From an uncultured Propionibacteriaceae bacterium (GTDB taxonomy: Bacteria > Actinomycetota > Actinomycetes > Propionibacteriales > Propionibacteriaceae), in NCBI GenBank assembly GCA_937859105.1, contig CALMAD010000453.1:1-12888 (forward strand): 12,888 bases of DNA, written 5' to 3'. The position numbers and the translations under genes were made by a program. Below, piece after piece: positions 2,071-11,205 of the stretch (its first letter is position 1; each line of letters starts with the position of its first letter). The notes under the pieces are model-generated. The model was not told where the DNA came from. It ran no database searches and saw nothing but the letters and a program-made list of their open reading frames with translations.

Positions 2071-4101
2071 GTGAACGTCGCCGATCCCGTGAAGCGCGTG
2101 CTCGTCGGACGGAAGCTCTCGAGCGCGCAATTAGGGGAAACCCTCTTGCCGAAGCGGATCGCGCTGCCGGTCTTCGCATCGGACGCCCTCAGCTCGGTGG
2201 CCTACGCCCCCGACGAGATCCTGCTCACGCTGAGTCTGGCCGGCATGGCCGGTTTCGCCTTCTCCTGGCAGATCGCGGTCGCCGTGGCGGTGGTCATGCT
2301 CGTGGTCGTGCTGTCGTACCGGCAGACCGTGCACGCCTACCCGTCCGGGGGCGGCGATTACGAGGTCGCCACGGTCAACGTGGGGCCGACGGCGGGGCTG
2401 GTCGTCGCGAGCGCGCTGTTGGTCGATTACGTGCTCACGGTCGCGGTGTCGGTGAGTTCGGGCGTCCAGAACGCGAAGGCGATGATCCCGATGATCGCGG
2501 GGCACGAGGGGCTCATCGCGGCGGTGGTGATCCTGCTGTTGATGGCGATGAACCTGCGAGGCGTCCGGGAGTCGGGCACCCTGTTCGCGATCCCGACGTA
2601 CGGGTTCATGATCGGCGTCCTGGGCATGACGGCCTGGGGCCTCACGCGTATCTTCGCGCTCGGCGAGCCGCTGCAGGCGCCGACCGCGCGGTTCGAGGTG
2701 GTGGGCGACCCGTTCTACAGCCAGCTCACCGGCTTCGCGCTCATCGCGCTGCTGGCCAGGGCATTCAGTTCGGGCTGTGCCGCCCTGACGGGCGTGGAGG
2801 CGATCAGCAACGGCGTCCCGGCGTTCAAAGAGCCGAAGAGCGGCAACGCCGCGACGACGCTCGCGCTGCTGGGCGGCATCGCGCTCAGCATGCTCGGGGG
2901 CATCATCGTGCTGGCGAACCTCACCGGCGCGAAGATGATCGACGAGCACGGCGGCTCGTACTTCACCCTCAACGGCCAGCGCGTCGAGGGCGGCCACGAC
3001 ACGACGATGGGCCAGTTGGCGGCGACCGTGTTCAACACGTTCACGCCCGGGTTCTACTTCGTGATCACGATGACGATGATCATCCTGATCCTGGCGGCCA
3101 ACACGGCCTTCAACGGCTTCCCGGTGCTCAGCTCGATCCTCGCGCGCGACGGCTACCTGCCCCGGATGCTCTACACCCGCGGCGACCGGCTCGCCTACAG
3201 CAACGGCATCATGCTGCTGGCCGGCGCGGCGATCACCCTCGTTCTCGTGTTCAACGCGAGCGTGACCGCCCTGATCCAGCTGTACGTCGTGGGCGTCTTC
3301 GTGTCGTTCACGGTCAGCCAGTTCGGCATGATGCGGCACTGGAACCGGCACCTGCGCACCGAGACGGACGCCCGGGCCCGCGCGGTCATGCAGCGCTCGC
3401 GGGCGATCAACGCCATCGGACTGACGTGCACGGGCACGGTGCTGATCATCGTCTTGGCGTCCAAGCTGATCTACGGGGCCTACCTGGCGATCATCGCGAT
3501 GGCCGTGCTCTTCGTGCTCATGCGCGCCATCCGCGCGCACTACGACAACGTGGCCACCGAGGTGGCTCTCGACCCCACAGAGGCGCGGACGTTGCCGAGC
3601 CGCGTGCGCGCCGTCATCCTCGTCAGCGGGGTGAACAAGCCGACGCTGCGGGCGGTGAACTTCGCGCGTGCCAGCCGGGCGAACTCGATCGAGGCCGTGA
3701 TGGTCGGCATCAACGAGGACGAGACCCGGCAGATGCGCGCCGAGTGGGAAGCCCAGGACGTCGGGATCCCGCTGAAGGTGATCGCCTCGCCGTTCCGGGA
3801 AGTGGTCGGGCCGTTCCTGAACTACGTCAGCGGAATCCGGTCGGGCAACCCGCGCGACGTGGTCTGCGTGTACGTGCCGGAGTTGATCGTGGGGCACTGG
3901 TGGGAGCGGATCCTGCACAACCAGACGGGGCTGTTCCTCAAGGCGCGGCTCAACCTCATGCCGGGCGTCATGGTGACGGCCGTTCCGTACATGCTGCGGT
4001 CGTCGAAGCATGCGGTCGCCCGCGCGCAGCGCAACTCCACGGCGGCCTGGCGGAAGGCGGGCCGCGGCCGCGTCCACTCCGGGACCCACATTGACGACTG
4101 A
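2071..4101 (+). CDS. APC-superfamily transporter, KimA-like potassium importer candidate
   Basis: A 676-residue membrane protein with about twelve hydrophobic segments up to residue ~490, followed by a cytosolic domain (~490-650) of mixed alpha/beta character. Blocks SDALSSVAY (37-45), AYPSGGGDY (89-97), LLVDYVLTVAVSVSSG (116-131), AFSSGCAALTGVEAISN (231-247), RGDRLAYSNGI and, near the end, ILHNQTGLFLKARL match my recollection of Bacillus subtilis KimA (YdaO), a proton-coupled K+ importer inhibited by c-di-AMP. D38, Y45, D119, Y120, T240 and E243 align with positions I recall as lining its ion sites. Relatives in actinobacteria are usually labelled amino acid permeases. Divergence from two TrkA-type genes favours potassium as substrate. 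The GTG start has no Shine-Dalgarno but sits just after a -10 box, suggesting leaderless translation; GTG 2089 is an in-frame alternative. The gene overlaps the following methyltransferase. Confidence 0.85.
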   Translation: MNVADPVKRVLVGRKLSSAQLGETLLPKRIALPVFASDALSSVAYAPDEILLTLSLAGMAGFAFSWQIAVAVAVVMLVVVLSYRQTVHAYPSGGGDYEVATVNVGPTAGLVVASALLVDYVLTVAVSVSSGVQNAKAMIPMIAGHEGLIAAVVILLLMAMNLRGVRESGTLFAIPTYGFMIGVLGMTAWGLTRIFALGEPLQAPTARFEVVGDPFYSQLTGFALIALLARAFSSGCAALTGVEAISNGVPAFKEPKSGNAATTLALLGGIALSMLGGIIVLANLTGAKMIDEHGGSYFTLNGQRVEGGHDTTMGQLAATVFNTFTPGFYFVITMTMIILILAANTAFNGFPVLSSILARDGYLPRMLYTRGDRLAYSNGIMLLAGAAITLVLVFNASVTALIQLYVVGVFVSFTVSQFGMMRHWNRHLRTETDARARAVMQRSRAINAIGLTCTGTVLIIVLASKLIYGAYLAIIAMAVLFVLMRAIRAHYDNVATEVALDPTEARTLPSRVRAVILVSGVNKPTLRAVNFARASRANSIEAVMVGINEDETRQMRAEWEAQDVGIPLKVIASPFREVVGPFLNYVSGIRSGNPRDVVCVYVPELIVGHWWERILHNQTGLFLKARLNLMPGVMVTAVPYMLRSSKHAVARAQRNSTAAWRKAGRGRVHSGTHIDD

Positions 4102-5251
4102 TCCCGCCCTCGTCCGGCCGGGCGACGTCATCGGGCCGGTCACGGTCGGCCCCGTGGCGCACGGCGGCCACTGGGTGGCGCGCCTGGACTCCTATGTCTG
4201 GTTCGTCCGCCATGCGCTGGAGGGCGAGCTCGTGACGCTGCGCGTCCGGGACGCCGGGGCGCGCTTCGGCCGGGCGGACGTCGCTGAGGTGCTCCGGCCG
4301 AGCCCCCATCGCGTGGACGCCCCCTGTCCGGTCGCCGGCGAGTGCGGCGGGTGCGACTTCCAGCACGTCGAGATCGGCGAGCAGCGACGCCTCAAGGCGT
4401 CCGTGCTCGACGAGCAACTGCGCCGGCTCGCCGGGCTGGGCTTCGACGCCGTGGTGGAGGCCGTCGATCCGCCCGCCCTGGGCTGGCGAACCCGCGTGCG
4501 CTACCACCGGACCCCCGAGGGTGCCCACGGCCTCAAGGCGCACGGCTCGGGCCGGGTCGTTCCGCTGCCCGAGGGCGGCTGCCGGATCGCGGTGCCCGCG
4601 CTCGCCACGCCCCCCGCCACCGTGGGCGAGGACGCCGCGAGCGCCGACGCGCTCGTCGGTGTCGCGCCGGCGGAGGGCGGCGTCCATTGGGGGACGCCGC
4701 GCGACGACACGGTCCTGCGGGAGCGTGCCGCCGGACGCGGCTGGTCCGTCCACGCGAACGGGTTCTGGCAGGTCCACCCAGCATCGGCCGACACGCTCGT
4801 GGCCGCCGTCCTCGACGGGCTGCGGCCGCAGCCGGGGGAGTCGGCCCTCGACCTGTACTGCGGCGTCGGGCTGTTCGCCGGGGCGCTCACGGACGCCGGC
4901 GTCCGGGTGCTCGGGGTGGAGGGCAGCAAGCCCGCGATCGCGCTGGCCCGCCGGAACGTGCCGGAGGCGAAGCTCGTCGCCGGGTCGGTGGAGCGGTCGC
5001 TCCACCGGCTGCCGCGACGCGCTGACCTGGTCGTGCTCGACCCGCCGCGCACGGGCGCCGGGCGGCGCGTGATGGACGCCGTGCTGGCCCTCGAGCCGCG
5101 CGCGATCGCCTACGTCGCCTGCGACCCGGCCGCTCTCGCGCGTGACGTGGCCACGGCCGCGGCGTCCGGCTGGGGTGTGCGGTCGGTTCGCGCGTTCGAT
5201 CTGTTCCCGATGACGCATCATGTCGAAGCTGTGACGATCCTGGGCAGATAG
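4091..5251 (+). CDS. TrmA/RumA-family RNA m5U methyltransferase with TRAM domain
   Basis: A 386-residue SAM-dependent enzyme that methylates C5 of uridine in rRNA or tRNA. In order: an N-terminal TRAM RNA-binding domain (~8-65); a Fe-S cluster motif C79-x5-C85-x2-C88 with the fourth ligand probably C164; the central NGFWQVHP segment; SAM motif I in ALDLYCGVGLFAG; LDPPRTGAG; the catalytic nucleophile C344 in YVACDP; and the catalytic base E379 in FPMTHHVE at the C-terminus. All key residues of the RlmC/RlmD group are present, so it should be active, but the target nucleotide cannot be read from sequence. The start is placed at TTG 4091, which gives the usual short lead into the TRAM domain and overlaps the transporter stop by 11 bases; an in-frame ATG at 4010 would overlap it by 92 bases. 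Translational coupling to the transporter is likely. Confidence 0.88.
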   Translation: MTTDPALVRPGDVIGPVTVGPVAHGGHWVARLDSYVWFVRHALEGELVTLRVRDAGARFGRADVAEVLRPSPHRVDAPCPVAGECGGCDFQHVEIGEQRRLKASVLDEQLRRLAGLGFDAVVEAVDPPALGWRTRVRYHRTPEGAHGLKAHGSGRVVPLPEGGCRIAVPALATPPATVGEDAASADALVGVAPAEGGVHWGTPRDDTVLRERAAGRGWSVHANGFWQVHPASADTLVAAVLDGLRPQPGESALDLYCGVGLFAGALTDAGVRVLGVEGSKPAIALARRNVPEAKLVAGSVERSLHRLPRRADLVVLDPPRTGAGRRVMDAVLALEPRAIAYVACDPAALARDVATAAASGWGVRSVRAFDLFPMTHHVEAVTILGR

Positions 5252-5573: not shown

Positions 5574-8246
<2,673 letters not shown>

Positions 8247-8777: not shown

Positions 8778-8806
8778 TTGGCAGAGGGACCACGGCGTCC
8801 TAGAAT
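8778..8806 (+). promoter_or_regulatory. Sigma-70-type promoter of the SOS-box gene
   Basis: TTGGCA (8778-8783) and TAGAAT (8801-8806) are separated by 17 bases, the best -35/-10 pair in the window. Transcription would begin near 8813, leaving a short leader with a ribosome-binding site for the gene at 8835. The -10 box shares its last two bases with the LexA palindrome. Confidence 0.75.
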
Positions 8807-8822
8807 CGAACGTAGGTTCGAT
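8805..8822. promoter_or_regulatory. LexA (SOS) box
   Basis: ATCGAACGTAGGTTCGAT is a perfect inverted repeat with 7-base arms around GTAG. Its inner part TCGAAC-N4-GTTCGA is identical to the mycobacterial SOS-box consensus and fits the Gram-positive CGAAC-N4-GTTCG pattern. It covers the end of the -10 box and the expected transcription start, where bound LexA would block RNA polymerase. Chance occurrence of a perfect box at this exact position relative to a good promoter is unlikely. Confidence 0.85.
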
Positions 8823-8834
8823 GAAGGGGGCGCG

Positions 8835-9239
8835 ATGGTCACCGCGACGCAGCGAGACAAGGGGCGGGCGTCGGAGGGGTACGTGCCGCCCGGCTGGCCG
8901 GTACAGGTGCGGCCTCCGGGCGCGCCGCGGTGGGAGGAGACGGCGGCGGAGTTCCTGCTCGACTGCTGCCCGGCCGACTTCCGCGGGTACGCCGTGTTGC
9001 GGCGCCACCCGGTGGTGCTGGCGCGGTTCGCCGCCGAATGCGTGGCCGCCCAGGTGCGCTCGTGCGAGGCGGGGTTGTCCGAGGTGCGGGTGAGTCTGGG
9101 CGACATGGTGTCGCCCGAGGTGGTCGAGGCGGCGACGCTGGCATGGCAGGAGCAGGGGGCGGCGCTGAAGCGGCGGCAGCGGGAGGTCGCGCTGGTGGAG
9201 GAAGTGCTGCGCGGCCGGGTTTTCGTACGCAAGCTGTGA
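8835..9239 (+). CDS. Conserved protein of unknown function, predicted LexA-controlled
   Basis: A 134-residue soluble protein, which I recall only as a conserved uncharacterised actinobacterial family. Visible features are a Pro-rich lead (VPPGWPVQVRPPGAPRWEE, 17-35), a central block LLDCCPADFRGYAVLRRHPV (41-60) with adjacent cysteines C44-C45, a helical stretch with further cysteines C69 and C77, a second helical part at ~94-126 rich in Glu and Arg, and a basic end RGRVFVRKL. There is no signal peptide or membrane segment. The ATG at 8835 has AAGGGGG (8824-8830) four bases upstream; the ATG at 8821 is in another frame and lies inside the SOS box. The promoter and LexA box directly upstream predict induction by DNA damage. 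A function in repair or damage response is inference from that regulation only. The next gene, dxs, has its own promoter. Confidence 0.85.
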   Translation: MVTATQRDKGRASEGYVPPGWPVQVRPPGAPRWEETAAEFLLDCCPADFRGYAVLRRHPVVLARFAAECVAAQVRSCEAGLSEVRVSLGDMVSPEVVEAATLAWQEQGAALKRRQREVALVEEVLRGRVFVRKL

Positions 9240-9272: not shown

Positions 9273-9278
9273 TAGAAT
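9273..9278 (+). promoter_or_regulatory. -10 box for leaderless dxs transcript
   Basis: TAGAAT ends 7 bases before the ATG at 9286, the usual distance from a -10 box to a transcription start. There is no Shine-Dalgarno before that ATG, so the mRNA probably begins at the start codon. The same 11-base string CCTAGAATCGA occurs at 8799-8809 before the SOS-box gene. No good -35 is seen here. Confidence 0.6.
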
Positions 9279-9285
9279 CGACCCT

Positions 9286-11205
9286 ATGTCTCTGCTCGAG
9301 GGCATTCATGGCCCGCGCGATGTCCGTGATCTGACCCCGCGGGAGCTGGGCGCTCTCGCGGGGGAGATCCGGCAGTTCTTGATCGACAAGGTGAGCCGTA
9401 CCGGGGGTCACCTCGGGCCCAACCTGGGGGTCGTCGAACTGACGCTGGCGCTGCATCGCGTGTTCGACTCGCCGCACGACCCCATCGTCTTCGACACCGG
9501 GCACCAGAGCTACGTGCACAAGATCTTGACGGGTCGTCAGGCCGGCTTCGACCATCTCCGGCAGAAGGGCGGCCTGTCGGGCTACCAGTCGCGGGAGGAG
9601 TCGGAGCACGACTGGGTCGAGAACAGCCACGCGTCGACGTCGCTGTCGTGGTCGGCGGGCCTGGCCAAGGCCTTCCAGCTGCGCGGAGAAGACCGGACTG
9701 TCGTGGCGGTCGTCGGCGACGGCGCCCTCACCGGCGGCATGGCCTGGGAGGCGCTGAACAACATCGCGGTCGAGCCCGACCTCAGGCTCGTCATCGTCGT
9801 GAACGACAACGGCCGTTCGTACACGCCGACCGTGGGCGGCCTGGCCTGGCACCTGCAGGGCCTGCGCACCGACCCGCGCTACGAGCAGGCGCTCGACGTG
9901 ATCAAGAGGGGCGTCCGGTCGGCCCCGCTCGTGGGCGGCCCGGTGTACGACCTCATGCACGGACTCAAGACCGGGGTGAAAGACGTCATCGCGCCGCAGG
10001 GCCTGTTCAGCGACCTGGGCATGAAGTACCTCGGGCCGATCGACGGCCACGACCTGGGCGCGCTGGAGCGGGCGCTCGACGCGGCGCGCACCTTCGGCGG
10101 GCCCGTGATCGTGCATGCGATCACCGAGAAGGGCAAGGGGTTCGAGGCGGCTGAACAGAACGAGGAGGATCGGTTCCACGCCGTCGGTCGCATCGACTGC
10201 GTGACGGGCCTGCCGGTCGGCGGCGGCGTCCACCGGCGCACCTGGACGGAGGCGTTCAGCGACCAGATGGTGGAGATCGGGCGCCGCGATCCGTCCGTCG
10301 TCGCGATCACCGCGGCCATGTTGCACCCGACGGGCCTGGGAGCGTTCGCCGCCGAGTTCCCTGAGCGGGTGTTCGACGTCGGCATCGCCGAGCAGCATGC
10401 GACCACGTTCGCAGCGGGCCTCGCGCGCGGCGGCCTCCACCCCGTCTTCGCGGTGTACGCGACCTTCCTGAATCGCGCGTTCGACCAGGTGCTCCTCGAT
10501 GTCGCCCTGCACCGGCTGGGCGTCACGTTCGTGCTCGACCGGGCCGGCGTCACCGGCACCGACGGGCCCAGCCACAACGGCATGTGGGATCACACGATCG
10601 CCGGGCTGGTGCCGGGCCTCCAGCTCGCCGATCCGCGTGACGAGCAGCGGCTCGACGAGGCGCTGCAGCGGGCGGTGGGGGTGTCGGATGCACCGACGGT
10701 GATCCGGTTCAGCAAAGAGGCGGTGCCCGACCCGGTGCCGGCCGTGCGGCGGCGCGGGTCGGTCGACGTGCTCGCGGAGGCGTCCGATCCGCGCGTGCTG
10801 ATCGTCGGCTACGGGCAGTTCGCCTCCCTGGCCGTGCAGGTCGGGTCGCGGGTGGGCGTCCAGGGCATCGGGGCGACCGTCGTCGACCCGGTCTGGGCGC
10901 TGCCGGTGTCGGGCGACCTGGTGGAGTTGTGTCGCGAGCACGCCGCCGTCGTGACACTGGAGGACAGTGGGGTCGCGGGCGGCCTGGGCACGCGGCTGGC
11001 GCTCGAGCTCGCGGAGCAGGGAGTGCGGACGCCGGTGTACCCGCTCGGCATCCCGCAGCGGTTCCTCGCGCAGGGGTCGCGCTCGGAGATCCTCGAGGAT
11101 TTGGGGCTGACCGCTCAGGCGCTGGCGCGCACGGTGGTGGAGTTCGTGGTGGAGGGCGAGGCCGACCTGCCGGCCGACCGGCGGGTCAACCCAGCGCAGG
11201 CGTGA
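9286..11205 (+). CDS. dxs: 1-deoxy-D-xylulose-5-phosphate synthase
   Basis: A 639-residue thiamine-diphosphate enzyme that condenses pyruvate and glyceraldehyde 3-phosphate to DXP, the entry step of the MEP isoprenoid pathway; cytosolic dimer. Visible motifs: H42 in GGHLGPNLGVVELT; the ThDP/Mg2+ motif from G144-D145-G146 (GDGALTGGMAWEALNN) to N173-D174-N175; the catalytic E369 in FDVGIAEQHATTFAAGLA; YATFLNRAFDQVLLDVAL; and DRAGVTGTDGPSHNGMWD. Domains follow the transketolase order: ThDP-binding, pyrimidine-binding, C-terminal. Length matches actinobacterial Dxs. The start at ATG 9286 (MSLLEGI) fits homologues and the leaderless -10 box; GTG 9262 in the same frame would place that box inside the coding region. 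The 3' end overlaps the convergent ribonuclease gene by 20 bases. Complete and expected to be functional. Confidence 0.97.
   Translation: MSLLEGIHGPRDVRDLTPRELGALAGEIRQFLIDKVSRTGGHLGPNLGVVELTLALHRVFDSPHDPIVFDTGHQSYVHKILTGRQAGFDHLRQKGGLSGYQSREESEHDWVENSHASTSLSWSAGLAKAFQLRGEDRTVVAVVGDGALTGGMAWEALNNIAVEPDLRLVIVVNDNGRSYTPTVGGLAWHLQGLRTDPRYEQALDVIKRGVRSAPLVGGPVYDLMHGLKTGVKDVIAPQGLFSDLGMKYLGPIDGHDLGALERALDAARTFGGPVIVHAITEKGKGFEAAEQNEEDRFHAVGRIDCVTGLPVGGGVHRRTWTEAFSDQMVEIGRRDPSVVAITAAMLHPTGLGAFAAEFPERVFDVGIAEQHATTFAAGLARGGLHPVFAVYATFLNRAFDQVLLDVALHRLGVTFVLDRAGVTGTDGPSHNGMWDHTIAGLVPGLQLADPRDEQRLDEALQRAVGVSDAPTVIRFSKEAVPDPVPAVRRRGSVDVLAEASDPRVLIVGYGQFASLAVQVGSRVGVQGIGATVVDPVWALPVSGDLVELCREHAAVVTLEDSGVAGGLGTRLALELAEQGVRTPVYPLGIPQRFLAQGSRSEILEDLGLTAQALARTVVEFVVEGEADLPADRRVNPAQA

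Follow-up and report, generated by a model that had tools for sequence, protein, structure and literature searches.

A small predicted helical protein as a probable lineage-specific addition to the LexA/RecA SOS regulon of Propionibacteriaceae and other actinomycete families

Background

Small SOS effectors such as RecX, DinI, SulA, YneA, DivS and SidA are controlled by LexA and are often lineage-specific. Many of the characterised small SOS proteins act on recombination or translesion synthesis, and SidA, DidA, YneA, DivS and ChiZ act at the membrane or septum.

LexA ChIP-seq in Streptomyces venezuelae yielded the operator consensus tCGAAC-N4-GNNCGa, and Table 1 of that study gives some of the hypothetical proteins among the LexA targets by locus number only (PMC9380542). 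In mycobacteria, recA is under the dual control of LexA and PafBC (P1), with the two motifs in two promoters, and the RecA-independent damage promoter has been described as tTGTCRgtg-8nt-TannnT (PMC5656591).

Here we examined a gene, designated X, on a contig of an uncultured Propionibacteriaceae bacterium (GenBank assembly GCA_937859105.1, contig CALMAD010000453.1). The predicted operator of X is that of the actinobacterial LexA/SOS regulon, it likewise lies on the core promoter, and the lexA and recA genes of the same genome share it. However, X differs from the S. venezuelae regulon in that its Streptomyces homologues lack the box, which was absent upstream of X from all 13 genomes read in family 22, the family that contains Streptomyces. 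X resembles RecX, DinI, SulA, YneA, DivS and SidA in being small, lineage-specific and preceded by a LexA box, but, unlike them, it matches nothing in the sequence libraries searched, lacks a membrane-like segment and is predicted to fold into two long helices that form a hairpin. A literature search by LexA, SOS and taxon words, X itself being nameless, returned no title or opening of an abstract describing X; a supplement or a regulon database may already list it. Binding, ChIP or expression data were likewise not found for any member of the X family.

The locus and its promoter

The window, that is, the whole stretch of 12,888 nucleotides that was analysed, comes from a draft genome of 2.61 Mb that is 74% complete. 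Its features around X are collected in Table 1.

Table 1. Predicted features of the window in the neighbourhood of X
Feature	Position	Strand	Basis or remark
acn (aconitase)	5574-8246	+	Part of the acn-X-dxs neighbourhood
Upstream ORF, 156 aa	8274-8744	+	Hydrophobic (membrane-like), no family match
-35-like hexamer TTGGCA	8778-8783	+	Sequence reading, promoter scan
-10-like hexamer TAGAAT	8801-8806	+	Final T common to LexA box; sequence reading, promoter scan
LexA (SOS) box TCGAACGTAGGTTCGA	8806-8821	.	Perfect palindromic consensus, 0 mismatches
X, 134 aa, uncharacterised, predicted helical protein	8835-9239	+	Open frame, ATG 8835, stop ends 9239
dxs (1-deoxy-D-xylulose-5-phosphate synthase), downstream neighbour	9286-11205	+	ATG 9286; in-frame GTG 9262

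An earlier note on this DNA had claimed a strong promoter, with TTGGCA and TAGAAT separated by 17 bp, followed by the exact LexA consensus placed on the -10 end. The hexamers, the spacer and the palindrome were all confirmed. The promoter scan predicted a sigma-70-like site for X that agrees at 10/12 positions and is the only site between 8700 and 9320 (shuffle mean 0.0, sd 0.1), and the operator overlaps this predicted promoter by one base. The link that the note drew to mycobacteria held for the motif consensus, but for the motif only. From the end of the box to the ATG of X is 13 bp.

Only two perfect LexA boxes occur in the draft genome, the second of them upstream of lexA, and X thus owns one of the two best sites. 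A further box with 1 mismatch, likewise upstream of lexA, lies 150 bp further on, and recA is preceded by a box with 1 mismatch. Since lexA and recA carry the operator that X also carries, this genome has a normal SOS system. Sites with at most one mismatch numbered 14 in the genome, compared to 3 for the reversed pattern. Within the window, 17 matches had at most three mismatches against 7.6 expected; 1/200 shuffles gave as many as 17, and we draw no conclusion from this count.

The 156-residue ORF upstream of X is co-directional with it and terminates ahead of the box. Therefore, the box is not the promoter of this ORF and would control only X and any read-through, at most into dxs. An ORF cluster whose representative has a start resembling that of this ORF was seen upstream of X at 13 loci. 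The ATG of dxs follows the stop of X by 46 bp, and read-through from the predicted SOS promoter into dxs is possible. A TAGAAT of its own precedes dxs (9273-9278, 7 bp ahead of the ATG) and may belong to a leaderless promoter; no LexA box was found at this hexamer (9273-9288).

Distribution of the LexA box

Homologues of X were present in 86 of 196 relatives, the source genome included, and a search of 394 genomes of the class gave 152 with a match. Eighteen of the 152 were already among the first 86, and 14 were left out (11 from family 22 and three from family 37), so that the box was read in 206 genomes, over the 300 bp that precede the conserved YVPPGWP start.

A box with no more than two mismatches was found in 118 of the 127 genomes of five actinomycete families, and it was perfect in 66 of them. 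By family, the counts were 63/70 for the Propionibacteriaceae (family 1), 17/17 for family 3, which we tentatively take to be the Nocardioidaceae, 33/33 for family 20, in which Nocardiopsis falls, 4/6 for family 36 and 1/1 for family 50. Tiles of 310 bp taken as controls from the homologue loci had matches of this quality in 17/493 (tiles from 86 loci) and 46/1802 cases, none of them perfect. Within the genus of the source genome, 12/13 genomes had a box with at most one mismatch. Named loci with a box include those of Microlunatus flavus (1 mismatch), Raineyella antarctica (2 mismatches) and drafts of Propionicimonas and Propionibacterium (1 mismatch each); Nigerium, Micropruina, Propionicimonas and Propioniciclava are among the protein relatives in family 1.

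Seven of the 70 genomes of family 1 and two of the six of family 36 had no box within two mismatches. The two in family 36 look like Arsenicicoccus, a genus that seems to belong to this family, and X is present with no box at the Arsenicicoccus loci (L105 and L106, named as such, and L109) and in Kineosporia mesophila (L107). One of the seven in family 1, the LexA-less genome G038, had a marginal match that was considered as a remnant of X (E 6e-4, two stops) and dropped, as it lies far from the dxs of that genome; it is probably not X, and G038 is still counted among the 70. X was split or frameshifted at four loci, L074 (G006), L093 (G067), L098 (G052) and L095 (G012), which may reflect sequencing error, a contig end or decay; G006 and G067 are one-contig genomes.

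In 26 other families, the box was found upstream of X in 0/79 genomes, a total that includes one genome with no upstream sequence and hence a meaningless value (G208, family 17). As a control, recA was searched in 30 genomes of these families. Apart from one unreadable gene (G216), all 29 recA loci, which come from 24 of the 26 families, had a LexA box within some 400 bp, 28 of them with at most two mismatches and one with three. Therefore, the motif is detectable in the box-lacking families, and X lies outside their SOS regulon.

The earlier note had suggested that X is possibly a new SOS member, and had proposed scoring the promoters of homologues for the LexA motif. It had named a lack of the box in related genera as a refuting result; the counts in families 1, 3 and 20, set against 17/493 control tiles, show the opposite and support the suggestion. 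Its picture of a conserved actinobacterial gene under SOS control applies to five families, but not to the 26 others, which have the gene and lack the box. On this comparative sequence evidence, we consider it highly probable (about 0.9) that X truly belongs to the LexA/RecA SOS regulon as a lineage-specific member.

The box-lacking families have dxs on the downstream side of X in 48/79 genomes and acn on the upstream side in 42/79, a pattern that points to acn-X-dxs as the older gene order. Most families carry X with no box, so the older role of X need not be related to DNA damage. A tree of X (199 rows, 120 columns) required no fewer than 10 changes of the box label, and its resolution is too low to distinguish a single gain of the box from several.

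Association of the box with X rather than dxs

We also considered whether the box might serve dxs, such that damage would raise isoprenoid synthesis and X would be a bystander in the leader. The gene order lends itself to this explanation, given the short gap between X and dxs in the window and the position of dxs downstream of X in 53/70 loci of family 1. However, families 3 and 20 keep the box with X away from dxs, which adjoins X at 1/17 and 0/33 loci, respectively, in the 1-2.5 kb fetched. In addition, among family-1 genomes that lack X, a match with at most two mismatches was present in the 740 bp upstream of dxs in only 2/25, compared to a perfect box in the same interval in 3/3 X-bearing controls (G009, G017 and G029); the orientation of dxs in G115 could not be settled, and neither recA nor dxs was matched in G022. 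Together with the separate TAGAAT of dxs, these results make control of dxs highly improbable as the purpose of the box. In these sequences the box follows X, not dxs.

Family 3 also has a neighbour of its own. At 6/17 loci (L067, L068, L078, L081, L085 and L086), the next gene is co-directional, begins 24-52 bp downstream of X and clusters with a representative (L067, the one member in which the domain was tested) that has a NUDIX domain. X and this hydrolase could form an SOS-induced pair for cleaning up the nucleotide pool, but the arrangement is confined to part of family 3, and the genes that adjoin X elsewhere belong to other clusters, mostly dxs. We therefore regard such a pairing as very unlikely to explain X.

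The promoter geometry also differs between families. In family 1, a TAnnnT element starts 5 bp ahead of the box, as the TAGAAT of the window does, in 32 of the 63 box-bearing promoters. An element after the box was found in 17/17 promoters of family 3 and 31/33 of family 20, as opposed to 3/63 of family 1. In either geometry the box covers the core promoter, and this points to turnover under selection or to separate gains.

A second damage motif

Some promoters of X carry a second damage signal. In family 1, 15/70 genomes have the RecA-NDp motif (the RecA-independent, PafBC-type motif) with at most two mismatches in the 355 bp ahead of X, compared to 3/136 others and 10/1786 control tiles. In 13 of the 63 box-bearing promoters of family 1, it falls in the 45 bp ahead of the LexA box; the reversed motif gave 0 such cases, and 200 permuted motifs gave a mean of 0.13 and a maximum of 3. 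The motif was present in 23/28 recA genes of family 1, which served as the positive control. The 45-bp interval ahead of the box contained no RecA-NDp motif in family 3 (0/17), family 20 (0/33) or family 36 (0/4), and the promoter of X in the window has no match with up to three mismatches in 355 bp.

The start of the motif is mostly 22-23 or 28-33 bp ahead of the LexA box, and loci such as L063, L072, L094, L059 and L047, among others of family 1, thus have a composite damage promoter in which a RecA-NDp-like motif abuts the LexA box. These promoters of X resemble that of mycobacterial recA in having both damage motifs upstream, but differ in that their second motif adjoins the LexA box, whereas in mycobacterial recA the two are in separate promoters. 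The motif provides independent support for X as a damage gene in family 1.

It could be argued that the LexA box upstream of X is a chance match with no function, since the support consists of sequence data only. However, the conservation of the box is far above that of the control tiles, and the second motif is likewise above its permuted versions. We regard chance as the least probable of the explanations considered, to the point of being almost negligible.

Apparent LexA loss and the occurrence of X in Propionibacteriaceae

Both the X and the LexA tests were available for 113 genomes of family 1. X was present in 64/100 genomes with a strong match to the LexA DNA-binding domain, compared to 1/13 with a weak match or none (Fisher p 1e-4). 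The 13 come mainly from two genera (5 and 6 genomes) plus a few drafts, which amounts to about two events phylogenetically, so the link between LexA and X is suggestive only; the X-bearing exception is a 91%-complete draft. X is absent from 36 of the 100 genomes that have LexA, and is therefore accessory rather than core.

These two genera largely lack a canonical LexA DNA-binding domain. In genus g4 (G015, G038, G057, G072 and G085), the canonical LexA DNA-binding domain was unmatched in 5/5 genomes, and in genus g13, 6/8 genomes (G024, G045, G077, G090, G100 and G109) had weak matches only. The LexA box was absent from recA in the 10 readable genomes of these genera. The recA of G085 was unreadable, and in the four other g4 genomes it keeps a RecA-NDp-type motif (0-1 mismatch). 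It appears from these sequences that g4 has lost the SOS repressor and retained the second damage pathway.

The X protein

The earlier description of X as a protein with no known function was upheld, in that the protein of the window (P0001) matched no family in Pfam, NCBIfam, PHROGs or PADLOC; Pfam and NCBIfam were also run on 149 members, and PADLOC and PHROGs on 16. In the alignment of these 149 members, W21, P22 and L41 are invariant, and P28, A37, D43, P46, R50, L55, L62, R85, L88, V121, A124 and L125 nearly so. The N-terminal stretch is conserved and rich in proline and tryptophan. We recognised no catalytic signature when reading the alignment by eye. An AlphaFold2 model (mean pLDDT 89, pTM 0.80) predicts short helices within residues 33-57, followed by two long helices (59-88 and 94-125), and fold searches with this model gave no match at E <= 0.001.

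X might modulate homologous recombination or translesion synthesis directly by binding RecA filaments or a polymerase, as RecX, DinI and ImuA do, and so act like many of the characterised small SOS proteins. Weak matches to RecX_HTH2 in 3/149 members (best E 0.013) point in this direction, but they are far too weak to count, and no RecX domain scored above the cut-off in P0001. Moreover, the predicted two-helix hairpin is unlike the three-helix RecX repeat, and no recA, imuB or dnaE2 was recognised by eye in 30 neighbour clusters. A direct action of this kind, which overlaps with the adaptor role discussed below, is doubtful.

SOS regulons often include a species-specific cell-cycle checkpoint (PMC9380542), and X could in principle stop cell division after damage, as the checkpoint proteins SidA, DidA, YneA, DivS and ChiZ do. 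However, P0001 has neither a LysM nor any other Pfam domain, and a simple hydropathy scan found no membrane-like stretch in it (the best 19-residue value is 1.00; 7/216 X members reach 1.6). A role as a division checkpoint therefore seems unlikely.

No phage record with X was found, and four plasmid records carry it (two from Nonomuraea and one each from Embleya and Streptomyces; identity 36-42%), one of which is an 11.85-Mb record. There is thus little sign that X is mobile. The copy in Nonomuraea gerenzanensis has a box with 1 mismatch that ends 7 bp ahead of the likely ATG. On a 199-kb plasmid of Nonomuraea sp. (L330), X (3998-4387) adjoins two further hypothetical genes, and a LexA match with 2 mismatches lies 45 bp ahead of the annotated start.

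Proposed function and significance

If X is a member of the SOS regulon, as we consider highly probable, LexA in undamaged cells would sit on the box over the -10 region and start point and block RNA polymerase. Upon DNA damage, RecA filaments would trigger the self-cleavage of LexA, and X would then be made along with RecA and LexA. We infer this repression and induction of X from the known mechanism of LexA.

As to what X may do once made, we tentatively suggest a small, soluble, cytosolic adaptor in damage tolerance, rather than an enzyme or a membrane checkpoint. Its hairpin of two long helices might bind a repair or damage-tolerance protein such as the RecA filament, a polymerase or a replication factor. 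With a probability somewhat short of even odds, X could represent a new family of SOS effectors across several actinomycete families that was recruited from an older acn-X-dxs neighbourhood, is provided with a second promoter of the PafBC type in some Propionibacteriaceae, and serves damage tolerance through a mechanism unlike those of the small SOS proteins known so far.

SOS regulons outside model organisms are known mainly through their polymerases and recombinases. The comparative support for X in the SOS response is nearly as consistent as that for recA, with a box that is kept where X lies away from its usual neighbour and is absent where X is not linked to SOS. X would thus be a standing SOS member in five families and a case of a whole gene recruited into the response, and it is a well-delimited candidate for knock-out and damage assays in relatives that can be cultured. 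Judged by its promoters, X is very probably an overlooked part of the DNA-damage response in these five families.
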